Assembly: GCA_020849935.1 (NCBI GenBank)
Contig: JADZFJ010000067.1
Coordinates: 1-12,687, forward strand
Length of the DNA stretch: 12,687 nucleotides
Source of the DNA: Crocinitomix sp.
Lineage (GTDB): Bacteria > Bacteroidota > Bacteroidia > Flavobacteriales_D > Crocinitomicaceae
Direction: 5' to 3'
Shown here: piece after piece, positions 1-12,687 of the stretch
Position numbering within the stretch: the first letter of the stretch is position 1
How the letters are laid out: every line of letters starts with the position of its first letter
Made by a program: the position numbers and the translations under genes
The notes under the pieces: generated by a model
Database searches by the model: none
Told to the model about the DNA's origin: nothing
The model's input: the letters and a program-made list of their open reading frames with translations, nothing else

Positions 1-944
1 ATTTTTATTCCGTCATACTTCCATACTCCTGTATCATAAGGTACGAACCACAAATCATTGTTGTTGTCTTTTGCGACAGATAAGTATTCAGTAAAATCGT
101 TGTTTTTGCTTCCATCTAAACTACCTATACTTTTGATTCTCTTATAAAATGTTGATTTGTCTTGCCGGTTATTTGGCATTGAGTTAGTGTCATATATCGT
201 ATAACGATATGCTGAATTAAACCAAAAATCTCCATTTTTATCTTCTATTATTGAACGAACCCCATTGGCAGGTCCATCGTGCAGTTCTGTTACATCGTCT
301 TCAATAATCCAATCAAATGATTTTCCGTTGAAGCGGAAAGCACCTAAGGTTGCGGTACCAAACCAAATATTCTCCTGGCTGTCAGTGTAAATACAAAAAA
401 CAGCATAAGGGTTTGCATAGTTTGGATGTTTTGAAACATAATCTTCACCTAGTTTAATTTTTGGAATTTTTAATTTTAATAGACTTTCGCCATCAAATCT
501 GTAAACGAAACCGTCATATTCAGGACTTTTAAACCAAATGTCATTTGGATTTAATTTCCAATCGTTGTCAACTCCAACTTTTTCTTTTAACGCTTTAAAA
601 GTTTTTCCGTTAAATTGACATATTCCATAGTCAGTTGTAAAATAAATATTTCCCGATTTATCTTCCTTTATTTCTCCAATACTATTATTGGTCAAGCCAT
701 CTGTGGTTGTAAAATGAATGATTGTTTTTTCGTCATATTTGTACACTCCATCCTCCTTGCTTGCAAACCAATAATTGTTCTTCTTGTCTTGATAAACAAA
801 TGTTATGTCTTTGCCAAGTTCATTTACGGTGTCACCAATTGAAACCGAATTGGCTGAATTTTCGGAAGGTGATGTTGTCTGCCCGTTGCAGGAAATCAAC
901 ACGGTCAAAATGTTTAAAAAAAATATTAATGTTGGTATGTTCAT
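1..944 (-). CDS. Two-component-regulator-propeller lipoprotein (C-terminus cut by window edge)
   Basis: An uninterrupted minus-strand frame runs from ATG at 944 off the left edge (314 complete codons, no stop seen). The N-terminus is a lipoprotein signal with hydrophobic core and lipobox LISC, lipidated Cys19. The rest is built from blades of about 40-50 residues ending in an aromatic-Trp/Tyr-Phe strand followed by 'Tyr/Phe-Asn/Asp-Gly' turns: NYWFAS (57-62), NIYFTT (99-104), DIWFKS (135-140), NIWFGT (192-197), DFWFNS (239-244), DLWFVP (297-302). This is the ligand-binding-sensor / two-component-regulator propeller (Reg_prop) pattern, known from periplasmic sensor regions of Bacteroidota hybrid histidine kinases. 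Here the protein starts as a lipoprotein, so it is probably a free surface or periplasmic beta-propeller; a C-terminal signalling domain beyond the edge cannot be excluded. It begins 19 bp after the stop of the 964-1692 gene, so the two are probably co-transcribed. Confidence 0.85.
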   Translation of the reverse strand, partial: MNIPTLIFFLNILTVLISCNGQTTSPSENSANSVSIGDTVNELGKDITFVYQDKKNNYWFASKEDGVYKYDEKTIIHFTTTDGLTNNSIGEIKEDKSGNIYFTTDYGICQFNGKTFKALKEKVGVDNDWKLNPNDIWFKSPEYDGFVYRFDGESLLKLKIPKIKLGEDYVSKHPNYANPYAVFCIYTDSQENIWFGTATLGAFRFNGKSFDWIIEDDVTELHDGPANGVRSIIEDKNGDFWFNSAYRYTIYDTNSMPNNRQDKSTFYKRIKSIGSLDGSKNNDFTEYLSVAKDNNNDLWFVPYDTGVWKYDGIK

Positions 945-963
945 TGTCAAATTCTCTCGTCCA

Positions 964-1692
964 TTAGCATCCCATGGATGGTTCAATAATGATCAATTTG
1001 GTTACCGTTTGGCCATTGTCTTTTCGTTGTCCTGTAACTCGCAAATAATAGCGACTGATACCAACACCACTTGGATATTCTGTGGGTGCTTTTACCTTTT
1101 CTACTAGTTTTAGCCATTCGTCGCCGCATTGATCTTTTACTTCTTGTTTTAAGTCGTCCATTAAAATTTTCGGAAATTTCTCGTGTTCCTTTTCAGTATA
1201 TTTTTCACAGATAAATTGGCCGGAATTATTTGTTTGTAATTGTTTCCAGTCTGAATAAAAATGTTTCCAGTCGACCAAGGCGCAATAAGGACCTTCATTC
1301 ATAATTGTCACACTGGTTTCGTAGCGTTGTTCAACAGTCAAGCCTGTGAGTTGGTCGCTTGACAAAGAAATAAGTTGACCTTCAATTATTTCACCAAGTT
1401 CGGGATAGATTTCGACTGTATCTTTTTGAATTTGGTCCATTTTCATTTCTTCGTCATAAATGATTAAACGACTAATAGAAACTGAAAGCTCATCAAATTT
1501 TATGGTTGTAATGGTGTCAACTTCTCCTTCACTTGTAAATGGATCTTCGTTACTGGTTTGATTAGACATAATTGCTGTGTCGCTAACCATATTGTCGTTT
1601 TGAGTTGGCACCGTCGTGTCTGTCGATGCGTTATCGCACGCACAAAGTGTCGTAAATGTTAAAATGCTGATGAGGTGGTGTAGTTTCGTCAT
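964..1692 (-). CDS. Hypothetical lipoprotein, 242 aa
   Basis: Residues 1-19 form a lipoprotein signal peptide with lipobox LCAC (Cys19 the likely acylation site), followed by a low-complexity Thr/Asn/Ser/Asp linker to about residue 55, typical of a tether between outer membrane and folded domain. The mature domain (about 60-242) is mixed alpha/beta with several Trp and Cys residues (CALVDW, FICEKY, DQCGDEW) and a C-terminal strand TVTKLIIIEP. I recognise no family. The next gene, the propeller lipoprotein, follows after 19 bp, which suggests a two-gene operon of envelope-anchored proteins. No convincing TAnnTTTG promoter was seen directly upstream; the upstream gap holds an 11-bp direct repeat instead. 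The start at 1692 is chosen because it gives the complete signal peptide. Confidence 0.8.
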   Translation of the reverse strand: MTKLHHLISILTFTTLCACDNASTDTTVPTQNDNMVSDTAIMSNQTSNEDPFTSEGEVDTITTIKFDELSVSISRLIIYDEEMKMDQIQKDTVEIYPELGEIIEGQLISLSSDQLTGLTVEQRYETSVTIMNEGPYCALVDWKHFYSDWKQLQTNNSGQFICEKYTEKEHEKFPKILMDDLKQEVKDQCGDEWLKLVEKVKAPTEYPSGVGISRYYLRVTGQRKDNGQTVTKLIIIEPSMGC

Positions 1693-1748
1693 ACTTTTGG
1701 TGCTTTCAGTGAGTGCCTATGCGCGCTGCCGACTGTTTAAATAAATGG

Positions 1749-1798
1749 TTGTTCCGAAGTTAAGGTTTTTTTCTTTCTAATTTATCTTTGTTCCGAAG
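1749..1798. repeat. 11-bp direct repeat pair in intergenic gap
   Basis: The word TTGTTCCGAAG occurs at 1749-1759 and again at 1788-1798, 39 bp apart, in the 146-bp gap between the 964-1692 and 1839-2345 genes. The gap also has two patches locally richer in G and C (about 1715-1732 and 1811-1824). It could be an operator pair for the downstream lipoprotein operon or a scar of cassette-type gene insertion; nothing in the sequence decides between these. Confidence 0.35.
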
Positions 1799-1838
1799 CA
1801 AGATTTGAAGGCTGGCGCTGGTGAGCTATTATAAACAT

Positions 1839-2345
1839 TTATTCATTGGGTGATAATTCACATCCATCGCAATAGGTATTTCTTTTTTTGTTGGTGATCC
1901 AAGCGAACTGATCATTAAAGCGATAAGAAAAATTTCTGTTGCTAAGGTATCTCACACCTTTTTTTCGGCGATAATATTCTTTCATTTCCATCGTATCGCT
2001 CACAAATGGATGATCACCATTTAACGTTAATTTTCCTAGACGATCAATGGAATAATTCCCTTGAAATGAATAATATTTTCTAATCAACGCATCACCTTCA
2101 AGTGTTGCACATTCCAGATGAATATCGTAGTTTCCATCAGCTTGAAGAGTCACATTCATATACCCACAATAATCGCCTATTGGAGAATTATTTGAATGTT
2201 TCTTTACTTTGCGCGTGTCTATGTTATTACAACCAAAATCGGACTTATAACTCCCTTTAAAATGTTCAAAATTGTCATTCAGAGAATCACTTTCTTGAGA
2301 AAGTAAATTCATTGGGATCAATAGTAGAATGAGTAGGTATTTCAT
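1839..2345 (-). CDS. Hypothetical secreted protein, 168 aa
   Basis: The protein starts with a Sec signal peptide (MKYLLILLLIPMNLLSQ, cleavage probably near residue 17) without a lipobox. The mature part is beta-rich: a GSYKSDFGC strand, then CGYMNVTLQADGNYDIHLEC, a YYSFQGNYSIDRLGKLTLNGD segment, and a C-terminal CDGC pair. The pattern Gly-x-Tyr / Leu-x-x-Asp-Gly-x-Tyr / Phe-x-Gly-x-Tyr / Leu-x-Leu recalls small NlpE-like or lipocalin-like barrels that sense envelope stress, but this is a shape resemblance only; I do not recognise the family. Five or so cysteines suggest disulfides in the periplasm or outside the cell. The start lies 48 bp from the end of structured repeat copy A, so any leader of this gene would include or abut that repeat. 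Confidence 0.75.
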   Translation of the reverse strand: MKYLLILLLIPMNLLSQESDSLNDNFEHFKGSYKSDFGCNNIDTRKVKKHSNNSPIGDYCGYMNVTLQADGNYDIHLECATLEGDALIRKYYSFQGNYSIDRLGKLTLNGDHPFVSDTMEMKEYYRRKKGVRYLSNRNFSYRFNDQFAWITNKKRNTYCDGCELSPNE

Positions 2346-2496
2346 TGTTTATTAATTATTTATGCTTGCTTTTTTTGGTTATGTATTTGCCATTTAAAAT
2401 TAGGTAAATAAAACCGATTTAAAGGATTAGGGTTGGTTTATTTGGAAAAAAATCAACCCAAAAAAGGAAATTGATTCAATACACCGTTTGTTTTTG

Positions 2497-2549
2497 CATT
2501 GGGCGCCTGTAGAGACGCGATGCATCGCGTCTCTACGAAATGCCCAATG
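2497..2549. repeat. Nested palindrome in repeat copy A
   Basis: A perfect 28-bp palindrome at 2509-2536 (half-site GTAGAGACGCGATG, mirrored exactly) is itself enclosed by an 8-bp outer stem: CATTGGGC at 2497-2504 pairs with GCCCAATG at 2542-2549. No T-tract follows on either strand, so this is not a simple intrinsic terminator. Palindromes of this 'agagacgcgat' type are, from memory, common in Bacteroidota and cyanobacterial intergenic DNA. Confidence 0.8.
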
Positions 2550-2748
2550 ACCCAAAGGACATAATTTTTATGGTAATTTTTGCAAAAAATTTTTGTGAAT
2601 GATAGCATATTTGCCCGCGTTAAGGATGGGAAGGATTGTTTGAGCTCCTTACCTTTTGTGTCGATTGGTGAATTATGGTGGTAGGTTGGAGGATGGAAGA
2701 ATTGTGAGAAAAGGATAAATTTGGTAAGAGCGAGCCTGGACAGCCTGA

Positions 2749-2786
2749 CCCCACCAATCCCGACGTTTCAGTCGGGATTGGTGGGG
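2749..2786. other. Perfect 16-bp hairpin, variable stem of repeat copy A
   Basis: CCCCACCAATCCCGAC (2749-2764) pairs without mismatch with 2771-2786 across the loop GTTTCA. It lies between invariant flanks (CAGCCTGAC and GGGAACGCCCAG). The corresponding arms in copy B (4695-4726) have a different inner sequence but pair as well, which is covariation supporting a real folded structure. Confidence 0.85.
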
Positions 2787-2955
2787 GAACGCCCAGAAAA
2801 TTTATAGGTTGAAAATGGGGGACAGCGAACTGGTTTTTTCTGATTTGAATGTTAGGATTCCTGATTGGATTATTTCCTTGAAATTGTGCATGTTATGGGA
2901 TAAGTGTTGATTTAGAAATAGGGTTGGTGATTTGTGTTTGATGGGCTGTGCCAAG

Positions 2956-3705
2956 TTACTGGTAGTGTTGATCTTCCCAATTTTTTTGAAAAGCTATTCT
3001 TTCTTGCAACCAATCTTTAATGGTTTTCAATTCTTTGGGCGAGCTATATTCGCCGTATTGGAGAATTTTAGTCAATAAATCTTCATATTCCTCCAATTCA
3101 TAGTACGCGCCGGGATCGTCATTATTTGCAACCAAATCTTCAAGAAATAATTTCATTTCGAATACATGATCGATATAATAATCAGCGATTAATTGTGGGG
3201 AATCTTGAAAGTGGGTAATGATATATTTGTCAAATTGATGATCCCATTTATCAAAGTCTGTTGTTACTTGAATATTTAATTGGCCATCTAAAATCTCAAA
3301 ACGACTAATTTGCGTATCATAAATCACGAAAAAAAGCGAGTCGGCTAAAAAAGGTGCTGAACTTTTAATTCCTTCAATGAAAGCATCATTGAATCCCCAT
3401 TTGCCATCAGATTGAATGGAAAGGTATATTCCGGGCTCTTTAAAATTGATTGTTCTTGTGGGTGAATAAATAGCCATTCTTTCTACGTTTCCGTTATTTT
3501 TGATGGAAACAAATGTGTCCGAAAAAATTGGTTTTGTTTTTGTTTCTATATTTTCTAAGTTAAAAGAGTGCAAAAAGGAATTTTCACAATTCTTTTTCAC
3601 TTTTAAGATGGCAGAAGCAGCTAGGGTAATTGGCTTCAGTTGATATACTTCATTTAAAGTTCCCATTGGTTGTGGTTTGATGAGTAAATGTGAATTGTTG
3701 CCCAA
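2956..3705 (-). CDS. Hypothetical protein, 249 aa (start uncertain)
   Basis: The frame opens at a TTG (3705) directly after an in-frame TGA at 3706-3708; the first ATG is at 3666 and would give 236 residues. TTG lies 15 bp after the stop of the upstream lipoprotein gene, ATG 54 bp after it; GGGTGA a few bases before TTG is a weak ribosome-binding candidate. Neither start gives a signal peptide, so the product is probably cytoplasmic, unlike its neighbours. The sequence is mixed alpha/beta, with strands up to about residue 150 and an acidic helical C-terminal half (DYYIDHVFEMKLFLEDL, GAYYELEEYEDLLTKIL) ending in a Gln/His-rich tail. I recognise no family. Together with 3721-4305 it forms a two-gene unit lying between the two direct repeats. 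Confidence 0.7.
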   Translation of the reverse strand: MGNNSHLLIKPQPMGTLNEVYQLKPITLAASAILKVKKNCENSFLHSFNLENIETKTKPIFSDTFVSIKNNGNVERMAIYSPTRTINFKEPGIYLSIQSDGKWGFNDAFIEGIKSSAPFLADSLFFVIYDTQISRFEILDGQLNIQVTTDFDKWDHQFDKYIITHFQDSPQLIADYYIDHVFEMKLFLEDLVANNDDPGAYYELEEYEDLLTKILQYGEYSSPKELKTIKDWLQERIAFQKNWEDQHYQ

Positions 3706-3720
3706 TCATTCACCCGATTT

Positions 3721-4305
3721 TTATTGGTATTTTAAGATGAGCAGCCGAAAATTATCTCCATTCATGATATAATAAGTTGTTAACACGAGAATTTCTTTAA
3801 TTTGATTATTGTCAACATCTTGTAAGGTGATTCCAACAAGCTGTTCACCTTGTAAATTCAGCGTTTTGCCATCTTTTCTTTCGGCATTTTTTACGGTAAA
3901 ATCGATGTTAGACAAGGCTAAGGCATCATAATTACAGTTGAATGAAATCGTGTTTTTTTCATCTAAATATTCCTTTTTTGGTTGCTGATTCTCAAATTTT
4001 TGAAGATTCAAGTCGTTATTTGTAAGAATATTTAGTTCGTTTAGTTTTTTTACGATTTCAGAATTTGAATTCACAGACAGTGCCGTAGGATTAGATTTTT
4101 TTAGCTCGTCCAATTCTTTTTCGGATAAATTTTCGTGACCAACATAGGATCTTCTAAAACTCATTGAGTCGATTTCGATAATACCAGCATTCGTTTTAAG
4201 ATTGGTGTCATCCTGAAAAATTTCACTTTTTTCAATGCGCTCGGCATCTTTTTTGTTTGTGCAAGAAAGACTTATGAATACAACTAGGATTAAAATGATT
4301 GGCAT
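3721..4305 (-). CDS. Hypothetical lipoprotein, 194 aa
   Basis: A short signal peptide ends in a lipobox ISLSC (Cys15), followed by a charged Lys/Glu/Asp linker. The mature region is Asn/Lys/Glu-rich. Its C-terminus contains DVDNNQIKEILVLTTYY: an Asp-x-Asp-x-Asn loop followed by a hydrophobic strand, which resembles the Ca-binding turns of FG-GAP/VCBS-like repeats ('D-D-G-x-x-E-I-hydrophobic'). Only one such turn is present, so this is a hint and not an assignment. It is followed after 15 bp (or 54 bp, depending on the start used) by the 2956-3705 gene, probably in the same transcript. Its ATG lies 33 bp from repeat copy B. No TAnnTTTG promoter was found in the short stretch upstream. Confidence 0.75.
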   Translation of the reverse strand: MPIILILVVFISLSCTNKKDAERIEKSEIFQDDTNLKTNAGIIEIDSMSFRRSYVGHENLSEKELDELKKSNPTALSVNSNSEIVKKLNELNILTNNDLNLQKFENQQPKKEYLDEKNTISFNCNYDALALSNIDFTVKNAERKDGKTLNLQGEQLVGITLQDVDNNQIKEILVLTTYYIMNGDNFRLLILKYQ

Positions 4306-4450
4306 TGTTTTTATGAATGTTGGTGGTTTTCACTTTGATTAAAATTAGGTAAATAAAACCGATTGAAGGGGTTGGATTTGGTTTTTTTTAAAAATCAATC
4401 AGAAGAAGGCAAATAATTCAATTCAACGTTTGTTTTTGCATTTGGCGCCT

Positions 4451-4478
4451 GTAGAGACGCGATGCATCGCGTCTATAT
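4451..4478. repeat. Partly decayed palindrome in repeat copy B
   Basis: This is the counterpart of the 28-bp palindrome of copy A. The central 20 bp (AGACGCGATGCATCGCGTCT) remain perfectly symmetric, while the right end reads ATAT in place of CTAC. The outer 8-bp stem seen in copy A is also broken here (CATTTGGC against GCCCAATG), so the structure is intact in one copy only. Confidence 0.7.
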
Positions 4479-4694
4479 GTGAAATGCCCAATGCCCCGAA
4501 GGACATAATTTTTATGTTAATTTTTGCAACAATTTTTTGTAAATGATAGCATATTTGCCCGCGTTAAGGATGGGAAGGATTGTTTGAGCTCCTTACCTTT
4601 TGTGTCGAATGGTGAATTATGGTGGTAGGTTGGAGGGTGGAAGAATTGAGAGAAAAGGATAAATGTGGTAAGAGCGAGCCTGGACAGCCTGACG

Positions 4695-4726
4695 CCACCT
4701 TAACTACGTTTTAGTTGTTAAGGTGG
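4695..4726. other. Hairpin with changed arms, variable stem of repeat copy B
   Basis: CCACCTTAACTAC (4695-4707) pairs with 4714-4726 across loop GTTTTA, with one T-T mismatch in 13 positions. The outer CCACC/GGTGG pairs are shared with copy A; the inner 8 positions differ from the inner 9 positions of copy A on both arms in a compensating way. The surrounding sequence is identical in both copies. Confidence 0.8.
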
Positions 4727-4799
4727 GGGAACGCCCAGAAAATTTATAGGTTGAAAGTGATGAATTAAACTAGGTAAATTTAATTTTTCTCACATTTTA

Positions 4800-4952
4800 T
4801 TAATCTTTTACCAACTTAAGTCTTCTTTCTTCGAAGTACTTTTTAATTTGTTCAAAATTCATTTCTTTGATGTCTTCATTGATTTTTTCGCGGACCTCAC
4901 GCATGAATTCCACCGCTTTGAAATCTCGGATAATTTTTTCTTTATTCTTCAT
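4800..4952 (-). CDS. Small antitoxin candidate of PIN-domain toxin, 50 aa
   Basis: A 50-codon frame starts at ATG 4952, inside the last codons of the PIN gene, and ends with TAA at 4800-4802. The two genes overlap by 11 bp (ATGAAGAATAA contains both the start and the toxin stop), so translation is very probably coupled. The product is strongly charged and predicted mostly helical: KAVEFMREVREKINEDIKEM (residues 12-31), then NFEQIKKYFEERRLKLVKD. This 'F-K-A-V-x-F-M-R-x-V-R-x-K-I' helix resembles, from memory, short unnamed partners of PIN toxins in Bacteroidota and other phyla. No DNA-binding fold (AbrB, RHH, HTH) is visible, so how the operon would be autoregulated is unclear. The order toxin-then-antitoxin is the reverse of classical vapBC. 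Confidence 0.8.
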   Translation of the reverse strand: MKNKEKIIRDFKAVEFMREVREKINEDIKEMNFEQIKKYFEERRLKLVKD

Positions 4953-5412
4953 AATTAATTATTTCTTTAGGTGAACGAATATCAATTTGTGAATAACCGA
5001 GTTTGAGGTTAACTGCATTGTAACCTCGAATTCTGAAAATATTCACGATGTGTTTAAAATTCCAACTCACTAGTATATCTGCTTTATATATTGTAGCTAA
5101 AGCGATGTGAAAACAATCTTCTCTGCTGGTTTTGCCCACAACTTTTTCGGCCAGGTAAGTATCTGCCAGATTAACTGCTTCTTCAGTTAATTCAACTCGA
5201 ATTTTGAGGTGCTCTGGAATTGATGCTAAGAATTCTCTGACTTGTTTCGGCGCATTAATTAATTCATTTTCAGTGACAGATGAGAACATTATTTGGTAGC
5301 TAGAACTTTCTATATTGTCAAACAAAGATTGCGTTTCTTGTGCGAACTCAACATCAAAATATCCTCCTATAACAGAGGTATCTACATATATAATTAATCT
5401 TTTATTTTCCAT
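4942..5412 (-). CDS. PIN-domain ribonuclease toxin (VapC-like), 156 aa
   Basis: PIN domain covering nearly the whole length. The acidic metal-binding residues are visible: Asp11 in YVDTSVIGG, Glu50 in SVTENEL (Glu48 is an alternative), Asp99 in SREDCFHIALAT, and the last position is Asn118 in SWNFKHI, a common replacement of Asp in this subfamily. Such proteins are Mg-dependent endoribonucleases that cut tRNA, rRNA or mRNA when freed from an antitoxin; the target cannot be told from sequence. The start at 5412 is required because Asp11 lies close to the N-terminus. A near-consensus Bacteroidota promoter lies immediately upstream, giving a nearly leaderless mRNA. The 3' end overlaps the 50-codon antitoxin candidate. 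The pair sits in accessory DNA between repeat copy B and a MITE-like element, consistent with horizontal acquisition. Confidence 0.9.
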   Translation of the reverse strand: MENKRLIIYVDTSVIGGYFDVEFAQETQSLFDNIESSSYQIMFSSVTENELINAPKQVREFLASIPEHLKIRVELTEEAVNLADTYLAEKVVGKTSREDCFHIALATIYKADILVSWNFKHIVNIFRIRGYNAVNLKLGYSQIDIRSPKEIINYEE

Positions 5413-5416
5413 TACT

Positions 5417-5447
5417 CAAATTTACGAATTTTTAGGGTGATTTCAAA
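5417..5447 (-). promoter_or_regulatory. Bacteroidota-type promoter of the PIN toxin operon
   Basis: On the minus strand TTTG (5447-5444) is followed after exactly 19 nt by TAAATTTG (5424-5417), a full match to the TAnnTTTG -7 box with its -33 partner. The start point would fall at about 5413, at or one base before the ATG at 5412, so the transcript would be nearly leaderless. Confidence 0.6.
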
Positions 5448-5511
5448 TTCATCAATGATCATATATTTTGCAAACACAAATATTCGATATTAAGATTTTC
5501 AATTTACTCAG

Positions 5512-5540
5512 TTGTCGCGATGATTTATTGTTTACCTTTC
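5512..5540 (+). promoter_or_regulatory. Possible weak promoter of the 5558-6007 lipoprotein
   Basis: TTG at 5512-5514 and TACCTTTC at 5533-5540 (one mismatch to TAnnTTTG) are 18 nt apart and would give a leader of about 14 nt. In AT-rich DNA such a match can arise by chance. Confidence 0.3.
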
Positions 5541-5557
5541 AGAAAGAATTTGATGTT

Positions 5558-6007
5558 ATGAAAGTACTTGGTTTTTTAATGGGCGCATTGGTGTTGGGGA
5601 GTTTGTTCAGTTGCCGTTCGGTTGACTATTATCATTACGACCCTGCTAATCCTAGCAGTGAGGCCTATGGCATGTACACCGAACTGTGTTTACATAAAAA
5701 TGGGGAATTTGAAGAGTATTTGTATTGGGGCGTAAAGGATTCGGTGGATCAGGTGAATGAGGGGGTGTTGATTGCGGGTAATTATGAAAAAAGTGGGGAT
5801 ACCTTGAAACTATGGTATTCGTTTGAAGGGGATGCCGCGAAAACATTGCATCACGAGTTTTTTATTATGCGAGAAGATGGGTTGCACTTGTTAGAACCTG
5901 TGACGTATTCGTATCATTTTTTAGGCAAGGTTTTAAGCCCAGGAAAATCAACTGGATTGCGCGAATTACCTGATTTTTCGTCAGTGGTTTGGAAAGGTAG
6001 TTTTTAG
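5558..6007 (+). CDS. Hypothetical lipoprotein, 149 aa
   Basis: The frame is open from 5468, but the start at 5558 is preferred: it yields a typical lipoprotein signal MKVLGFLMGALVLGSLFSC with Cys19 in the lipobox LFSC, whereas the upstream 30 residues have no such character. The mature protein is beta-rich with alternating aromatic strands (ELCLHKNGEFEEYLYWG, VLIAGNYEKSGDTLKLWYSF, HEFFIMREDGLHLLEP), suggesting a small lipocalin-like or NlpE-like barrel. The 'hxLxxxGxF...GxYxxxGDTLxL' rhythm is common in short Bacteroidota lipoproteins of unknown role; I do not assign a family. The gene is transcribed away from the toxin operon and ends 12 bp before the MITE-like element. Confidence 0.75.
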   Translation: MKVLGFLMGALVLGSLFSCRSVDYYHYDPANPSSEAYGMYTELCLHKNGEFEEYLYWGVKDSVDQVNEGVLIAGNYEKSGDTLKLWYSFEGDAAKTLHHEFFIMREDGLHLLEPVTYSYHFLGKVLSPGKSTGLRELPDFSSVVWKGSF

Positions 6008-6019
6008 GATTAAGCTTAG

Positions 6020-6273
6020 AACCTGAGTTCGACTCTAAATTACCATCCAGATTTTTATTAACATTTGACCTAATAGCCCTATTCGCTGGATTTACGGAAT
6101 CAATACATTATATTTAGCAGACTGCTTAAAATAATGCTATCGGTATTTTCGCATAGAAAAACATGATTTTTTCGTCAAAACAACTCGAAATAGCCCGCTA
6201 TTACTTCGTTGCTTTTTCTCAAACTCAAGCTTTTCTAAGCGATCTGAATGAAATTTAAAATCGAACTCAGGTT
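6020..6273. mobile_element. MITE-like element, 254 bp, 22-bp terminal inverted repeats, TAG duplication
   Basis: The ends 6020-6041 and 6252-6273 are inverted repeats of 22 bp with 20 matches; the outer 13 bp (AACCTGAGTTCGA) are identical. Both are flanked outside by TAG (6017-6019 and 6274-6276), a likely 3-bp target-site duplication. The interior has no transposase gene; short internal palindromes include AATAGCCCGCTATT and AGCAGACTGCT. The element ends 4 bp from the stop codon of the surA-like gene, so it would be the first sequence transcribed after that gene and could alter its 3' end. Alternatively the paired ends could act as one very large stem, but matched TIRs plus a duplication favour a non-autonomous transposable element. 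It makes up nearly all of the 270-bp gap 6008-6277. Confidence 0.75.
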
Positions 6274-6277
6274 TAGA

Positions 6278-7687
6278 TTATAAACCTGCAGGAATCCAAT
6301 TGTACTTAAACGTACACGTTTTTAGATATTCCGGTGCAATTTCAACGTAATTCCCACTAATTTTAGAAGCAATCCACGCATCGATAACGGCTTCTTTTTT
6401 CTGATTAAGGGCCGCCATTTCAATTAATTGTCGATCAGTTTCTAAAGAGGCAATGTGTGGTTCTGTTCGTCCCAATAATTTTACAATTCGCACGCCTTGT
6501 TTGCGGTCCATGTAATTATCATACAAAGATGGGGTAGAGTAGTTCCCAATTTTTAAGCCTTGAATTAATCGATACATTTGTGGATCGATGTCGTTGATGT
6601 TTTGAACGTCCCAAAAATAATCGTTGGTGTATGGGTTGACAATTTGTCCGCCGTTGTATTTTGATTCAAGATCCTGGCTAAAACGACGCGCTGCTTCTTC
6701 GAACGTAATATTTCCGTAATTGATTTGTTTGTATAAACTGTCCACCAAATTGGCCGCGCGGTCAAGTTCCATGTCACTTACTTTTGGACTGACAAGGATA
6801 TGACGCGAGTGATAATTGTCTCCTTTACGCTCGAGTAATTGCACAATGTGATACCCGTACATGGTTTCAAAAACGGGCGAAATTTCCATTGGTTTCAAGT
6901 TAAATAAAGCTGCCTCAAATTCTGGCACCATGGTTCCACGTGTTTGCCAGCCCAAATCGCCCCCACTTATTTTACTTCCGGGATCGTCTGAATAAAGGGC
7001 CGCCACATTTTGAAACTTCTTGGTGCCGTCTAAAATGTCTTTTAAATACCCTTCGATTCTTGTTTTTGCCAAGTTTTTATCGGCGGTAGTGATTTCTGGG
7101 TAAATGACAATTTGCGCCACTGTAATTTTTGAGTTGATATAAGGAATACTGTCTTTTGGAAGACTTTTGTAAAATTCTTTGATTTCGTTTGGAGTAATGC
7201 GCACATTTTCAGTAATGGTCTCACGCATTCGCTCTGCCAACATTCTCTTTTTGATTAAGTCAAAAAATTCAGCCTTAATCCGCGCAACAGATTTTCCGTA
7301 AAATTCCTCCAATTTTTCGATACTTCCAATTTGTTTGGCGATGTAATCCAACCGTTGTTCCATTTCTTGGTTCACCATTTCATCCGGCACTTGGATACTG
7401 TCTATTTTGGCTTGATTGATTAAGAGTTTTTCAAACATAATCTCTTCTAAAAAAGCACAATCGGATAATGTGCTTCCCTCAATTCCACTTTGAATTAATT
7501 GCAACCGTTGTTCTTGTAGACTAGACAACAAAATAATTTCATCGCCAATTTGGGCAACGATTTTATCAATGACTTTAAAATCATCTTTTTGAGCACGGCC
7601 TGTTTGAGATAAAAACAGACCCATTAACAATAGGAAAAAGTACTTATTTATCGATTGTAACTTCATTCTTCTCATACGCGGCATCAA
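6278..7687 (-). CDS. surA: SurA-like periplasmic chaperone / peptidyl-prolyl isomerase, 469 aa
   Basis: Order of parts: signal peptide (to about residue 33, ending GRAQ), SurA N-terminal chaperone domain (about 38-180, with IVAQIGDEIILLSSL), two parvulin-type PPIase domains (about 186-286 and 290-404) and a C-terminal helix. The domain plan and length resemble SurA, the escort of unfolded outer-membrane proteins. In the first PPIase domain the usual HIL motif reads AQIV (Gln192) while the C-terminal GYH (His280) is kept; in the second, HIL is kept (His296) while the later His is replaced (GVR, Arg400). Each domain thus lacks one of the two parvulin histidines, so prolyl-isomerase activity may be weak and chaperoning dominant. 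ATG 7687 gives an N-terminus MMPRMRRMK; ATG 7666 (MKLQSINKYF) fits a normal signal peptide better. Either start overlaps the upstream gene, implying translational coupling. Confidence 0.88.
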   Translation of the reverse strand: MMPRMRRMKLQSINKYFFLLLMGLFLSQTGRAQKDDFKVIDKIVAQIGDEIILLSSLQEQRLQLIQSGIEGSTLSDCAFLEEIMFEKLLINQAKIDSIQVPDEMVNQEMEQRLDYIAKQIGSIEKLEEFYGKSVARIKAEFFDLIKKRMLAERMRETITENVRITPNEIKEFYKSLPKDSIPYINSKITVAQIVIYPEITTADKNLAKTRIEGYLKDILDGTKKFQNVAALYSDDPGSKISGGDLGWQTRGTMVPEFEAALFNLKPMEISPVFETMYGYHIVQLLERKGDNYHSRHILVSPKVSDMELDRAANLVDSLYKQINYGNITFEEAARRFSQDLESKYNGGQIVNPYTNDYFWDVQNINDIDPQMYRLIQGLKIGNYSTPSLYDNYMDRKQGVRIVKLLGRTEPHIASLETDRQLIEMAALNQKKEAVIDAWIASKISGNYVEIAPEYLKTCTFKYNWIPAGL

Positions 7688-8504
7688 TTAACTCTTTTTT
7701 TAGCTGATCTCTGGTCTCTTTAATTCGGAGGTTTAAGATTCGATCTTTTATGTTTTCTCGCTCAAAATCAAGCGGAGAGATACTGTTTTTTAATTTATAA
7801 TCGAGGATATTTACAAAATAATAAAATCCATTGTCCTCAAAACGAATTTTAGATAGGTTTAGTATAAATCGATCTTTATTTATGTCGGTGAGTGGAATTT
7901 CTTTCAATAAATCATCAAAATAAATCCAGCTTTCAATGTCGTAATAAAAATTGGTGGCGTATATTTTGGCATAGGTTTCGACTGTTGCTAAATCGCCCGG
8001 TTTTTGAAGGCGATACACATTCTCAATTTTTGAAACATTGGGCGCATCGGTTGGAATTTTAAGGTAAAGAACCTTCACCAAATAATCGTTTAACTGAAAA
8101 TCTTCTTTGTGTGAGCGGTGATAGTTCAGAATTTCTTCTTCTGTCACAGTCGTGTCTAATTTTTCATCCAATTTAATGGTCTCCATTTCATGAATCAGCA
8201 AATCTTTACGGTAATCGGCCACTTTTTTATCGATTTCTGTTTGATCGATGCTTTCCATTTCTTCGGCCGCCATCAACAAAATATGCTCTTCAATCCAATT
8301 ATTCACAAAGGCAGAAACGATTTCGGCGCTGTCCTCTTTGGTATAGCTTAAAAATGCCAAATCGGTTTCAAATAATTCATACTCACCAACTTTTGCGATT
8401 CGTTCCGCTTCATTTCCACCACCGCAAGAGAAGACCATAATACATAGAATAGCCATCGAAAAATAATTTCGGAGTGGATGTGCGCTATGGATCGATTTTA
8501 ACAT
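7644..8504 (-). CDS. SurA-N-like lipoprotein (degenerate PpiC family), 286 aa
   Basis: A lipoprotein signal ends at lipobox VFSC (Cys27); ATG 8456 (MAILCIMVFSC) is an alternative start with a more compact signal. The mature N-terminus (AKVGEYELFETDL, then VSAFVNNWIEEHILLMAAEE) is the SurA-N/trigger-factor-like helical fold, with a long helical stretch to about residue 130. The following region sits where a parvulin domain is expected (YLVKVLYLKIP ... GFYYFVNILDYKL) but has neither the HIL nor the G-Y/F-H motif, so it is probably catalytically inactive. It ends inside the start of the surA-like gene (overlap 23-44 bp), forming a tight operon. It is probably an outer-membrane-anchored partner of the folding machinery. 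Its transcription likely starts in the 94-bp gap that also holds the terminator of the preceding gene. Confidence 0.82.
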   Translation of the reverse strand: MLKSIHSAHPLRNYFSMAILCIMVFSCGGGNEAERIAKVGEYELFETDLAFLSYTKEDSAEIVSAFVNNWIEEHILLMAAEEMESIDQTEIDKKVADYRKDLLIHEMETIKLDEKLDTTVTEEEILNYHRSHKEDFQLNDYLVKVLYLKIPTDAPNVSKIENVYRLQKPGDLATVETYAKIYATNFYYDIESWIYFDDLLKEIPLTDINKDRFILNLSKIRFEDNGFYYFVNILDYKLKNSISPLDFERENIKDRILNLRIKETRDQLKKELIDAAYEKNEVTIDK

Positions 8505-8519
8505 GTGTCTAATTCAGGA

Positions 8520-8527
8520 CAAATATA
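8520..8527 (-). promoter_or_regulatory. -7 box of the SurA-N lipoprotein / surA operon
   Basis: On the minus strand TATATTTG (8527-8520) fully matches TAnnTTTG. The predicted start would be near 8516, giving a leader of about 12 nt to ATG 8504. No TTG is found at the ideal 19-21 nt; the nearest are 14 and 24 nt upstream, both inside the terminator hairpin. Confidence 0.45.
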
Positions 8528-8532
8528 ACAAT

Positions 8533-8577
8533 AAAAAAAGCCAACGTCATTCAACTTGAATAGCGTTGGCTTTTTTT
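8533..8577. terminator. Bidirectional intrinsic terminator
   Basis: GCCAACG (8540-8546) pairs with CGTTGGC (8564-8570); an inner stem ATTCA/TGAAT (8549-8553 and 8557-8561) tightens the loop. On the minus strand the hairpin is followed by seven T (complement of A at 8533-8539), on the plus strand by eight T. On the minus strand it lies 21 bp after the stop of the 692-residue isomerase gene and closes that transcript. Confidence 0.93.
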
Positions 8578-8598
8578 TAACAGATTTTATGGTTTTAT

Positions 8599-10677
8599 TT
8601 ACTTCGCAAGGCTATGTAAATTTTCAACATTAATCACCACATTGTATTTTTTACGCAATTCGAGCAACCACTCTTTTTCTAATTGATTTTGGTATGCTGC
8701 CGTCACCAATCCTTTAGCTTCACTGTATTCACGTTGTTTCGGTTGTAAAACTTCTCTTACATTAAAAACATAATACAAATCACCATTTTTGTACGGTTTA
8801 TTTAAGCCTTTTTTAAAGGTTTTTAATTTGAATTTTGCCTTTTCTGCATTTTGTTTTTGCACGGCTTTTTTATAGGCTTCGATTGCTTTTGTATCCGATT
8901 TATCAGCAGGTTCTTCCAATTTAGGAAACGATTTTCTTACTCTAAATGCTTCTGTGGTTTCGCTCGAGAAAATTTGAGTTTTCACTTTTGCATTTAATTC
9001 AGAACTTACGTTCACCGATTTAACAATTTCTTCCGGAGTCATTTTATTGGTTTCGATTAAGGCGACAACAGAGGCAGCCATTTTTTTATCGATACAGGTA
9101 TATAAATCTCCTTCGTAACGCACAGGATAGAAAAAATCTGCTTTATGAGCTTCGTAATAAGCACGAATTCCGGCAGTATCTTTCGATGCTTTTTTCCAAA
9201 TTGCGTCTTGCATAATTTCAAAAACTAAAATCCCGTCGCCATATTCTTTAATCAACGATTGGAATTCTGGATATTTTGCTTCTAATTTACTGTCTTCGTA
9301 AGCCAATAAACGTTCTTTTGCAAAGTCGTTCATCATGGACATCATTAATTCTTGTTTGTCCATTTGTGCACGTTTTTTCTGATTGGCAAGGATGTATTTT
9401 TCAAAATCACCCACAGTCACCATGTTATCTTTAAAGCTGAATAAGATTTCACCGTCGTTGGCATGGTTAGACAAACCTTTCCATTTAGCCATAAAAATTT
9501 CATCGCCAATGGTATTGTAAAAAATTGGCAGGTATTTTTTTGCATTGTCGGTATAATTGTATTGTTTTTTCAAACTCTCCACAAACGAATCGCGGGTAGT
9601 TTCAGAACGCATGTCCCGTTCCACTTTTAATTTCAATTCGCGGTACATATTGTCGTACGAAGGAATTGGAATGATTTGTACCCGTTTAATGATGTGAAAT
9701 CCGAAGATTGTGCGAACAGGTTTACTATAATCACCATCTTTTTCTAAGGCAAAGGCAGCCGCTTCAAAAGCAGGAACCATTCGTTGTTTTGCACCTGCAC
9801 CAAATAATGGCAACAACCCACCTTTGTTTTTTGAAGTTTGATCTTCTGAATATTTCGCCGCTACTTCTTCAAATGATTGTCCTGCATTTAAAAGGGCGTA
9901 AATTTCATTGATCTTTTTTTCTTTTTGTGCGATTAATTCTGGACTATCCGCGTCACCTGCAAGGATTAAAATATGCGCCGTCTCAATCATTCCTTTTGCT
10001 TCACGTTTGTCTGCACAATAGATTAAGTGGTAACCAAATTTGGTTCGAATTGGCATAGAAACATCCCCAATATTCAATTTAAACGCCGCGTCCTCGAAAG
10101 GATAAACCATTTGAAAAGCAGAAAAATAACCTAAATCTCCACCATTTATTTCCACCGAAGGATCTTCAGAACCACCCGCACCACGCGCTACAGATTCAAA
10201 ACTTTCACCCGCTAAAATTCGTTCACGCATCCGCAAAATTCGCCCGTAAGCCACAAGGGTATCTTGCGGTATTGGATCTGGATTTAATCGGACCAAAATA
10301 TGACTTGCGCGGATTTCCGTTTTTGTACGGTCATACGCCTCTTTAATGAGGTATTCGTTTTGGTTTTTATCCGTAAGATAAGGCAATGCTAATTGTTTAC
10401 GGTAATCCGACAATTCGCTAATTAAGCGAGGAATTGTGTCATAATGCGCATCTCTAGCCGCACGAACCTTTAATTTGTAATTGATAAACAATTCCATATA
10501 CGCATCCAACGAATCTTTGTGGAAAGAGGGGTTAGGATTGTTTTTAGAATAAATGTAGATAAATTCAGATGCCCGTACCTCTTCACCTTGGACGGTCAAT
10601 ACCACTGGATCCTTCACTTGCGCGCTGGCACCAATTGATAAAAGGACTCCCAAAAGAACTAATTGTAATCTTTTCAT
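8599..10677 (-). CDS. Periplasmic parvulin-type peptidyl-prolyl isomerase, 692 aa
   Basis: A signal peptide (MKRLQLVLLGVLLSIGASAQ) is followed by a helical N-terminal SurA-N-like region (about 22-118), two parvulin (PpiC/rotamase) domains at about 121-223 and 231-334, and a long Lys-rich C-terminal region (340-692) with more helical PpiC-linked segments. Both PPIase domains keep the histidine pair: ASHIL (His126) with FGYH (His217), and TAHIL (His235) with FGFH (His328), plus the GGDLG / GGLLP loops. Both therefore look active, in contrast to the surA-like gene downstream. It likely accelerates prolyl isomerisation of envelope proteins. It starts 58 bp after the guaB stop; no terminator is visible there, so read-through from guaB is possible, and no clear promoter of its own was seen. 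A strong terminator follows. The gene order guaB, large PPIase, SurA-N lipoprotein, SurA is, from memory, recurrent in Bacteroidota. Confidence 0.92.
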   Translation of the reverse strand: MKRLQLVLLGVLLSIGASAQVKDPVVLTVQGEEVRASEFIYIYSKNNPNPSFHKDSLDAYMELFINYKLKVRAARDAHYDTIPRLISELSDYRKQLALPYLTDKNQNEYLIKEAYDRTKTEIRASHILVRLNPDPIPQDTLVAYGRILRMRERILAGESFESVARGAGGSEDPSVEINGGDLGYFSAFQMVYPFEDAAFKLNIGDVSMPIRTKFGYHLIYCADKREAKGMIETAHILILAGDADSPELIAQKEKKINEIYALLNAGQSFEEVAAKYSEDQTSKNKGGLLPLFGAGAKQRMVPAFEAAAFALEKDGDYSKPVRTIFGFHIIKRVQIIPIPSYDNMYRELKLKVERDMRSETTRDSFVESLKKQYNYTDNAKKYLPIFYNTIGDEIFMAKWKGLSNHANDGEILFSFKDNMVTVGDFEKYILANQKKRAQMDKQELMMSMMNDFAKERLLAYEDSKLEAKYPEFQSLIKEYGDGILVFEIMQDAIWKKASKDTAGIRAYYEAHKADFFYPVRYEGDLYTCIDKKMAASVVALIETNKMTPEEIVKSVNVSSELNAKVKTQIFSSETTEAFRVRKSFPKLEEPADKSDTKAIEAYKKAVQKQNAEKAKFKLKTFKKGLNKPYKNGDLYYVFNVREVLQPKQREYSEAKGLVTAAYQNQLEKEWLLELRKKYNVVINVENLHSLAK

Positions 10678-10735
10678 GTTTTCGTTTTTTTAGCTAATTT
10701 ATTACTCTATAAAATGATATAATATGTATGACGTA

Positions 10736-12208
10736 TTATTTTTTACTATAGTTTGGTGCTTCACGTGTAATTGATACATCATGTGGATGACTTTCTAAAA
10801 CACCAGCGTTAGAAATTCGCACAAAAGGTGCTCCTTTTAAGCTCTCAATGTCTTTCGCACCACAATAACCCATTCCCGCACGAATTCCTCCAATAATTTG
10901 GTGCATCACCTCATCCAAATTTCCTTTGTAAGGTACTCGGCCAGAAATTCCTTCAGGAACTAATTTTTTAGCGTCGTCCTCTACATCTTGGAAATAGCGA
11001 TCTTTTGAACCTTGTTGCATGGCTTCTACTGAACCCATTCCACGGTACGCTTTAAATTTTCGACCTTCATAAATGATGGTTTCACCTGGAGATTCTTTTA
11101 CTCCTGCAAACATGGAACCCACCATAATTGAATCGGCACCTGCAGCAATTGCTTTCACAAAATCGCCTGTGTATCGAATTCCACCATCAGCAATTACCGG
11201 TACACCCGTACCTTCCAATGCCATCGCTACTTCGTTAATTGCAGACAATTGTGGAACCCCAACACCTGCAATGATTCGAGTGGTACAAATCGAACCAGGA
11301 CCGATGCCAACTTTAATCGCATCTGCACCCGCATCAACCAAAAACTTCGCAGCTTCGGCTGTGGCAATATTTCCAGCAATTACGTCCAAGGTTGGAAATT
11401 TTGCTTTCACTTTTTTAAGCATTTCACAAAATGATAGCGTGTGTCCGTGCGCTGTATCAATCACAATTGCATCTACACCCGCATTTACCAAGGCATCTAC
11501 ACGTTCGATTGTATCATTCGTTACTCCTACCGCTGCTGCAACACGAAGTCTTCCAAATTTATCTTTGCAAGAGTTTGGATGTTGTTTTACTTTGATAATA
11601 TCGCGGTAAGTAATTAATCCAAGTAATACGTTTTCAGCAGAAACAACTGGTAATTTTTCAATTTTATATTGTTGCAAAATCTCTTCTGCTTCCATTAAAC
11701 TTGTCCCTTCTTTCGCGGTAACTATATTTTCTGAAGTCATCACATCTTGTACTGATTTGGTGACATTTTTCTCAAAACGTAAATCACGGTTGGTCAAAAT
11801 TCCTTTTAAAATTCTATTTTCATCCACAATCGGAATACCTCCAATGGCATTTTCACGCATTAATTGAAGTGCATCGCTGATTTTAGCGGTTAAAGGCAAT
11901 ACAATTGGGTCAAGAATCATTCCGCTTTCAGAACGTTTCACTTTTCTAACTTCTAACGCTTGACGTTCGATAGACATGTTTTTATGAATAACCCCAATTC
12001 CTCCTTGTTGTGCAATAGCAATCGCCAATTCCGATTCAGTCACCGTATCCATTGCCGCAGAAATGATCGGAGCATTCAAAGTAATATTACGCGTTAATTT
12101 AGTTTGTAATTTAACTTCGCGTGGAAGAACTTCTGAATATCTCGGGATGAGTAAAACATCGTCATAAGTCAAACCTTCTTTGACATTATTTATATCTGAT
12201 ATCGGCAT
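10736..12208 (-). CDS. guaB: Inosine-5'-monophosphate dehydrogenase, 490 aa
   Basis: IMP dehydrogenase (EC 1.1.1.205) oxidises IMP to XMP with NAD+, the committed step of guanine nucleotide synthesis, in the cytoplasm. The sequence is full-length for the bacterial enzyme and shows all landmarks: N-terminal [12 protein letters not shown] (11-22), a pair of CBS domains at about 95-205 (regulatory Bateman module), the catalytic loop [11 protein letters not shown] with Cys308, the phosphate-binding [10 protein letters not shown] (340-349), YRGMGS (388-393), the mobile flap beginning near SKDRYF (401-406), and [11 protein letters not shown] (419-429). No residue seems missing. Transcription is divergent from the 12357 gene; a -7 box lies 32 bp before the ATG. 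The 692-residue isomerase gene follows after 58 bp. Confidence 0.98.
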
Positions 12209-12239
12209 AGAAATTTATTTGAACTATAAAAAATTCTGG

Positions 12240-12247
12240 CAAAGTTA
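12240..12247 (-). promoter_or_regulatory. -7 box of guaB
   Basis: TAACTTTG on the minus strand matches TAnnTTTG; transcription would start near 12236, with a leader of about 28 nt. No good -33 TTTG is present at 19-21 nt, so the site may depend on an activator or be fortuitous. Confidence 0.4.
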
Positions 12248-12308
12248 ATAAAAAGGAATATGATGCGTTCATTAATTTAAATTTACCACTTAAAAATTGT
12301 TAAATTGT

Positions 12309-12339
12309 TTTGATTGTATTATAATTATATGGACTTTTG
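12309..12339 (+). promoter_or_regulatory. Bacteroidota-type promoter of the 12357 gene
   Basis: TTTG at 12309-12312 and GACTTTTG at 12332-12339 (one mismatch to TAnnTTTG) are separated by exactly 19 nt. The predicted start near 12343 leaves a leader of about 14 nt before ATG 12357. Confidence 0.5.
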
Positions 12340-12356
12340 TTCATCACAGTTCGCAA

Positions 12357-12687
12357 ATGAAAAAATTAATAGTAATTAGTTTAATGTGTTTAAGCACAAT
12401 CGGCTTTTCTCAGAATTCGCCCAATTCAGCCAATTCGAGCGATACTGCACGTTTTGTTCAGTTAACTGGGATTATTATTACCGATAGTATGCTGCGTGTT
12501 CCTTTTGCCAAAGTGGTTGATTTATCGACACGAAGAGGTACGATTGCGGATTATTACGGATATTTTGCCTTGGTTGTTCATCCAGGCGACACGATTCAGT
12601 TTTCAAGTTTAGGCTTTAAAAAGAAACAATACATCGTTCCTGACTCCACCAAATTGACAGAAATCTCTTTGGTTCAATTAATGACGG
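12357..12687 (+). CDS. Carboxypeptidase-regulatory-like domain protein (C-terminus cut by window edge)
   Basis: Plus-strand frame from ATG 12357 with 110 complete codons and no stop before the right edge. The N-terminus is a Sec signal peptide (MKKLIVISLMCLSTIGFSQ, cleavage near residue 19), then a short Ser/Asn linker. From about residue 34 there is a carboxypeptidase-D regulatory-like beta-sandwich: VQLTGIIITDSMLRVPFAKV, STRRGTIADYYGYFALVV, HPGDTIQFSSLGFKKK. The 'G-hydrophobic-hydrophobic ... P-hydrophobic-A ... G-T-x-x-D-x-x-G-x-F ... G-D-T-I-x-F-S-x-L-G-F' series is the hallmark of this fold, known from the N-terminus of TonB-dependent receptors and from small Bacteroidota periplasmic proteins. 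Whether a TonB-dependent barrel follows cannot be seen; the sequence type fits the short, stand-alone form better. It is divergent from guaB. Confidence 0.85.
   Translation, partial: MKKLIVISLMCLSTIGFSQNSPNSANSSDTARFVQLTGIIITDSMLRVPFAKVVDLSTRRGTIADYYGYFALVVHPGDTIQFSSLGFKKKQYIVPDSTKLTEISLVQLMT

Follow-up and report, generated by a model that had tools for sequence, protein, structure and literature searches.

Known elements and the present locus

The Flavo-1 RNA motif, held in Rfam as RF01705 and typed there as small RNA ('sRNA'), is one of the described motifs of Bacteroidota, on record as a structured RNA since 2010 (Weinberg et al., 2010; PMC2864571). A 2022 review (PMC9029176) counts it with the sRNA families of highest abundance, and its hits were reported to lie equally in sense or antisense of transcribed regions, with many outside them (Guerin, 2021; PMC9723704). 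The sections of these three publications used here give no function for it. The present analysis concerns a stretch of 12,687 nt from a Crocinitomix sp. assembly (GCA_020849935.1, contig JADZFJ010000067.1, positions 1 to 12,687), hereafter the window, which carries two copies (c1 and c2) of a folded element with three arms, referred to as the three-way-junction element. With moderate confidence, we regard it as a non-autonomous mobile element of Bacteroidota whose single strand folds to a three-way junction and which is often kept by the host.

Repetitive extragenic palindromes (REPs), both GTAG- and CGTC-tagged, are also short folded intergenic repeats, and some are inserted inside other palindromes (Di Nocera et al., 2013; PMC3733652). 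The CGTC-tagged REPs, found in Bacteroidetes among other phyla, are given in the relevant sections of that paper as having no dedicated transposase (PMC3733652). Whereas a REP is a single hairpin of 20-40 nt, the element has three arms and measures about 80-190 nt. Moreover, its 181 aligned copies end in CCAA with no GTAG tag and, unlike GTAG-class REPs with their REP-associated tyrosine transposases (RAYTs), it was not found flanking Y1 transposase genes (0/30 loci). Miniature inverted-repeat transposable elements (MITEs) of DDE transposases are likewise short, non-autonomous and multi-copy; however, the element lacks an excess of target site duplication and has an internal three-way fold in place of plain terminal inverted repeats. 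Integron attC sites share with it a variable sequence, a conserved fold and a position near stop codons, but the element ends GCGTT ... AACGC, with the triplets reversed, has a third arm, and was seen in no cassette array.

Structure of the element

A repeat search confirmed the two direct copies of about 420 bp, nearly identical over the core, that the preliminary description of the window had reported. Their matching blocks start at 2394/4339 (84%), 2448/4390 (88%), 2537/4481 (95%) and 2780/4722 (97%), at a spacing of 1942-1945. Both hairpins are present as it described them, with different inner stems that pair on both arms (Table 1). The folding energy is -36.1 kcal/mol (z -7.8) in copy 1 and -20.0 kcal/mol (z -4.5) in copy 2, and no dinucleotide shuffle folded as well as either one (0/200 each). 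It also stands that no open reading frame (ORF) explains the conservation, none of 80 aa or more lying inside the element. The repeat is not, however, the two-copy affair it was taken for, since the window's genome holds at least 31 copies of the element, and the reported hairpin is the P3 arm of this larger folded unit. The suggestion that the variable stem is a copy-specific recognition part went unsupported, as ATCCCGACGTTTCAGTCGGGAT, which forms the tip of P3 in copy 1, is present elsewhere in the same genome.

Exact matches to GCGTTAAGGA number 12 in the window's genome, and at 10 of them the sequence runs on into a full element. Aligned sites share the plan GCGTT-A-AGG-AT-n-G-n-AG (P2 arm) ... 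AnAG-CCT-G (P3 arm) AACGC-CCAA, with conserved G-A pairs in the core and an unpaired tail, CCAA(A). The sequence of the closing stem P1 varies within this genome and includes GCGTT/AACGC, GCAAA/TTTGC, GCACA/TGTGC, GCGCC/GGCGC and GCGCT/AGCGC. At least three kinds of P2 arm were found, ATCC..GAT, AGCCC..GAGGACT and TTGTTTGAGCTC..GCGAG.

Two covariance models were built, R1 from 13 copies and R2 from 67. It had been set beforehand that the claim of selection on structure would fall if many aligned copies lacked covariation; this test was run over many copies, and the claim survived. In the 67-copy alignment 93.0% of the cells are paired (99.1% in P1 and 99.5% in P1b), 11 of 12 pairs have changed on both sides, and the covariation score is 0.387, as against 0.111 for shuffled and at most 0.085 for slid alignments. 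All five measures lie above all 500 shuffles and all slid versions, although the alignment was fitted to the structure and pairs outside the model are freer of that fit. The pairing is conserved across 181 distinct copies (reduced from 192 by collapsing duplicates; the partial reverse hits L041 and L044 stand outside alignment A4). Position 14, a pair not used in the model, is TA in 109 copies, AT in 47, GC in 20 and CG in 2 (178/181), while the pair at position 18 is GC in 141, AT in 16, GT in 10 and CG in 7. Three mismatches are kept: A12-G in 175/181, G15-A in 174/181 and A17-G in 146/181. Despite much compensatory change, 1,788 of 1,810 core pair cells are Watson-Crick, with 9 GT and 4 AC.

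Relation to Flavo-1

The element and Flavo-1 have in common the P1b/P2 core helix, their occurrence in Bacteroidota and their many copies. The core helix GAUnGnAG / AnAGC, with its covarying pairs, is found in both window copies and in the 181 copies, at the positions of the printed Rfam alignment. RF01705 gave no hit in the window at its gathering score (42 bits), and none up to E 5 for 2380-2840; both window copies are thus missed. In sibling copies it matched 5/8, 11/26 and 4/8 elements, the last in 140 kb of genome G254, where each of its hits (4/4) overlaps a three-armed element. These hits are copies with the ATCC..GAT kind of P2. Rfam's Flavo-1 is the counterpart, in some sibling copies, of the P2 arm of copy 1 (2626..2743). 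The printed model holds P1b and P2 alone, with no P1, P3 or CCAA tail. Copies with P2 only seem to exist (model positions 11-78, genomes G468 and G487); one that was viewed, L367:19485-19542, has the CCT/AGG closing and no P1 or P3.

Mobility, siting and exchange of arms are absent from the literature on Flavo-1, as far as the sections used here extend. A literature search that included motif strings found no such three-armed element in titles or the starts of abstracts. The preliminary description had offered a non-coding RNA or a recombination/transposition substrate, and these two options bracket the answer: relatives match Flavo-1, and the copies behave as mobile DNA.

Copy number and distribution

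BLAST of the repeat against its own genome (67.65% complete) returned two full copies and several partial matches. R1 gave at least 32 matches there, equal to at least 31 elements after removal of a reverse partial match (G000:C267); this is a lower bound, since 57 of 437 candidates were scored. R1 matched at least 23 of 59 genomes and R2 at least 46 of 296 in a Bacteroidota sample, the own genome included in both, again as lower bounds, since scoring covered 57 and 13 candidates per genome, respectively. More complete counts gave 42, 33, 4, 34, 35, 15, 10 and 12 in eight genomes, 15, 13, 18 and 16 in four congeneric genomes, and 58 and 64 in two sister genomes. The sample is not random within the family, and the copies include orthologues. 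A pattern for one arm type was found in 59 named stretches, from taxa that include Tenacibaculum, Polaribacter, Flavobacterium, Kordia, Mesonia and Carboxylicivirga; all but one bear the titles of Bacteroidota taxa, the exception being a bin titled Verrucomicrobia. The window repeat had no match in phages (INPHARED) or plasmids (PLSDB), and the pattern for one arm type had none in IMG/VR. A chance repeat, or one of two copies only, is ruled out by copy number and covariation.

In G456 copies were seen about 100 nt downstream of 5S rRNA genes (L230, L233), and similar lower-scoring matches of 113-119 nt recur.

Copies, flanks and insertion sites

Contigs C488, C144 and C192 of the window's genome each carry an 89-nt copy; the three are identical to one another and their 3' flanks are unrelated. 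On the 5' side, C488 and C144 share more than 200 nt (a gene end; 237 nt). Flanks were compared for 1,928 same-genome pairs from six genomes, the own genome being entered with 30 copies (C453 left out). Thirty-three pairs of about 85-100% identity have no flank homology, and in 29 of these the extension score does not exceed 5 on either side; examples are L345/L357 (94%) and L272/L276 (93%), with scores of 0-1. No pair among the 1,928 shares the 3' flank alone. Target duplication showed no clear excess, the largest being 5 observed against 1.2 shuffled (270 settings, 152 copies).

The window pair c1/c2 is best explained by one segmental duplication, because it is the sole pair with homology past the 3' end (21 nt). 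Duplication of a 420-bp stretch with one element in it would have been followed by replacement of the P3 stem in one copy.

At the 3' end of argS (30 loci taken from 121 genomes), the element was found within 240 nt in G313 alone of the 29 readable loci; L183 has a weak match more than 1 kb away. Behind hemE (30 loci taken from 58 genomes), it follows at about 75 nt or less in 14/30 loci, with differing next genes. It does not directly follow the gene in 16/30, but at least four of these (G495, G504, G506 and G519) are not clean empty sites because a match lies further downstream. At L309, L323, L328 and L332 the whole junction to the next gene is without the element. A filled/empty comparison of G468 with G487 missed most offset-predicted windows owing to rearrangements, and at the only site recovered, G487:1893095, G468 carries 463 nt of different sequence.

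In the window's genome and in G003, the element was seen to follow the stop codons of genes (L393, L394, L395; L155-L158) whose C-terminal sequences resemble, by eye, type-B type IX secretion sorting domains. Gene end and element seem to have been duplicated jointly at these loci, and homology stops at the element's 3' end.

Arm turnover

Sites with flanks alike by eye and different P2 or P3 arms were found in G083, G357, G424 and G456 (the sets L222/L224/L221/L219 and L214/L218/L215/L232), the same phenomenon as the arm difference between c1 and c2. In the window's genome a CCCCAA..TTGGGG tip occurs in 12 of 31 elements and a TCCCGA..TCGGGA tip in 4; moreover, the tip of P2 in C175 is similar to that of P3 in C267. 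From these sequences the arm tips look like exchangeable palindromic modules, not addresses. By eye, the tips of several P3 arms in this genome (GACG-ATCCCG..CGGGAT-GTC) are similar to CGTC-tagged REPs.

Siting and constraint

The 3' end of the element prefers to face a stop codon or a terminator. With ORFs called by a simple 100-codon rule, the stop of a facing gene lies within 80 nt of the 3' end in 87/178 copies, whereas 36/171 have a sense stop no more than 80 nt from the 5' end. Gaps of 7 nt or less number 37/178 for the facing stop at the 3' end versus 7/171 for the sense stop at the 5' end; the Fisher test on gaps used 10 in place of 7, which is conservative. The siting tests overstate independence because the sample is not random and orthologous copies are included. 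Where the gap was 25 nt or more, a hairpin with a T-run was found in 16/30, and in several the T-run touches the element. The strand of the element showed no bias with respect to local GC skew (22/47 positive).

In 11 orthologous pairs from sister genomes, the element differs in 11 of 1,054 columns (1.0%), the 5' flank in 102 of 1,115 (9.2%) and the 3' flank, often coding, in 32 of 1,107 (2.9%). Two of the 5' flanks contain large indels (29 and 42 columns), and minus both the figures are 31/900 for the 5' flank and 8/871 for the element. A twelfth pair (G468/G487, 639165/391045; flanks 85% and 78%) was left out. The low divergence means that the element is under constraint once inserted.

Nature of the element

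We take the element to be a mobile unit that is recognised as a folded strand, since most recent copies have sharp ends, target duplication was not seen, and the fold has persisted through turnover of the sequence. A trans-acting protein would recognise the fold while the unit is transiently single-stranded, most likely as DNA, and the unit would be inserted next to the A/T-rich 3' ends of genes. Arm tips may be replaced by other palindromes with pairing kept, and many insertions would then be retained since the structure may be useful, or at least tolerated, at a gene 3' end.

Several results weigh against this explanation. In the 67-copy alignment pairing in P3 reaches only 80%, with a mismatch at the outermost position in 39/66. 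The minimum-energy folds of the two window copies alone lack P1, and fragment 2615-2759, which holds P2 without its partners, folds no better than shuffles (z 0.2); P1 and P2 therefore derive from comparing the copies. Under RNA parameters the + strand is the better folder in 142/181 copies, but also in 132/181 shuffled sequences. DNA parameters favour the + strand in 158/181, a figure obtained without a shuffled control, and GU pairs are equally frequent in folds of either strand (469/6350 and 447/5859). C488 and C192 share a gapped 5' flank of about 25 nt that the ungapped test missed. Seven pairs share their 5' flank, six of them without 3' homology and c1/c2 with it, which a simple two-ended unit does not predict. 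No clean filled/empty junction was obtained at base resolution, and no mobilising enzyme was found among the Y1 transposases and reverse transcriptases examined. Moreover, a purely selfish repeat would not usually show such constraint, which agrees equally well with a host function.

Because of this constraint, the main rival is a structured RNA with a host function, either a small RNA or an element of an untranslated region, under selection as RNA and multiplied by ordinary duplication. The strong covariation, the conserved non-canonical G-A pairs, the low divergence at orthologous sites and the Rfam type 'sRNA' all speak for it, as does the excess of G-T over A-C at pairs 18 and 19 (19 to 4). 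In both window copies, CATATTTG stands a few nt before GCGTT and is one letter off TAnnTTTG, a box of Flavobacterium promoters (PMC9723704); however, across the 181 copies the base composition of the 20 nt upstream gives no sign of such a box. The unrelated flanks around near-identical copies also count against this rival. Both neighbouring genes are antisense to the element in 22/47 cases and both sense in 14/47, and the indifference of Flavo-1 hits to sense, antisense and transcribed regions, noted above, points the same way. An RNA with a host function is thus judged unlikely, although the window folds without P1 and the near match to the promoter box slightly lower our confidence in a mobile element and slightly raise the standing of the RNA.

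Distinctly less probable is a REP-like element moved by a RAYT or another tyrosine (Y1, HUH) transposase of the IS200-IS605 kind. An intergenic, folded unit with no target-duplication excess and one conserved flank side (the A-rich 3' end) is what the Y1/HUH mechanism would give, but the element lies within 1.5 kb of none of the 30 Y1_Tnp loci examined (of 33 matches). G087, a single contig estimated 100% complete, has 10 elements and no PF01797 match, and size and tag are unlike those of GTAG REPs. We consider it very improbable that the element is a retroposon akin to a short interspersed nuclear element, in which an RNA ending CCAA(A) would be primed at T-rich gene 3' ends and reverse transcribed. 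This would account for a constant 3' end by A-runs with a variable shared 5' flank (C488/C144, 237 nt; L090/L167, 184 nt; L156/L157/L158, 30-50 nt; L359/L368, a weak 66 nt), for the lack of pairs sharing the 3' flank alone, and for the terminator T-runs that abut the 3' end in several cases. However, C488/C144 and L156-L158 stand behind genes with C-termini that look alike by eye, so gene-family homology may explain the sharing, and PF00078 (RVT_1) was matched in only 6/10 element-rich genomes, with no match in G487 (64 elements), G003 (42), G087 or G456. An integron-type attC site or cassette boundary is scarcely credible, although no search was aimed at an integron integrase: a folded site close behind stop codons, with variable arms and a conserved fold, would suit it, but the attC consensus is RYYYAAC ... 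GTTRRRY, and the closing stem here is the other way round, with GTT in its 5' strand and AAC in its 3' strand. In addition, the neighbours include genes that resemble housekeeping genes by eye (hemE, hemF, argS, pheS), not cassettes.

In G159, 19 RVT_1 matches were seen, many equal in score and clustered, perhaps an active reverse-transcriptase gene family.

Features of the window

The positions of the repeats and of the parts of the element are collected in Table 1.

Table 1. Repeat units and parts of the three-way-junction element in the window
Feature	Position	Strand	Basis
Repeat unit copy 1, ~420 bp, element and 5' flank	2394..2817	+	repeat search
Element copy 1, model R1 100.3 bits (in R1 training set)	2615..2796	+	covariance model
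Copy 1 P1 5' strand GCGTT, partner 2788-2792 (AACGC)	2617..2621	+	sequence, comparison
Copy 1 P1b AGG, partner CCT 2744-2746	2623..2625	+	sequence, covariation
Copy 1 P2 arm, type c (GATTGTTTGAGCTC ... GAGCGAG), unusually long	2626..2743	+	sequence
Copy 1 P3 hairpin, 2749-2764 x 2771-2786, 16/16 pairs, loop GTTTCA	2749..2786	+	sequence, folding
Copy 1 P1 3' strand AACGC, then CCAG (family consensus CCAA)	2788..2792	+	sequence
Repeat unit copy 2, 89% to copy 1 by BLAST	4339..4759	+	repeat search, BLAST
Element copy 2, model R1 89.8 bits (in R1 training set)	4559..4738	+	covariance model
Copy 2 P1 5' strand GCGTT, partner 4730-4734	4561..4565	+	sequence, comparison
Copy 2 P1b AGG, partner CCT 4688-4690	4567..4569	+	sequence, comparison
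Copy 2 P3 hairpin, 4695-4707 x 4714-4726, 12/13 pairs, loop GTTTTA, different inner stem	4695..4726	+	sequence, folding
Copy 2 P1 3' strand AACGC	4730..4734	+	sequence, comparison

A palindrome, GTAGAGACGCGATGCATCGCGTCTCTAC, lies in both 420-bp repeats (2509-2536 and 4450-4477), its last bases changed in copy 2. It was also seen inside genes at L004, L005 and L022 whose translations resemble, by eye, a Y1/RAYT transposase, and similar matches were seen in G009, G018, G031 and G039. It is perhaps the REP of those RAYTs, separate from the three-armed element. Beside copy 2, an ORF at 4942-5412 has a weak, below cut-off match to the PIN domain PF16289 and perhaps belongs to a toxin-antitoxin pair. 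A minus-strand run of small proteins occupies 964-4305, with the 420-bp repeats directly upstream of two of them; the four proteins of this run that were tested had no Pfam match.

Implications

Tentatively, and with less assurance than we attach to mobility itself, Flavo-1 may be just one of the arms in a mobile element of a new class, which would combine a three-way junction, movement with no target duplication, an enzyme that reads the fold, exchangeable palindromic arms and common domestication at gene 3' ends. With the full-length form, Flavo-1 acquires ends, three arms, a preferred kind of site and copies of recent date. Should it be mobile DNA, a mobilising enzyme that reads structure is still to be found, and the sRNA inventories of Bacteroidota would be inflated.

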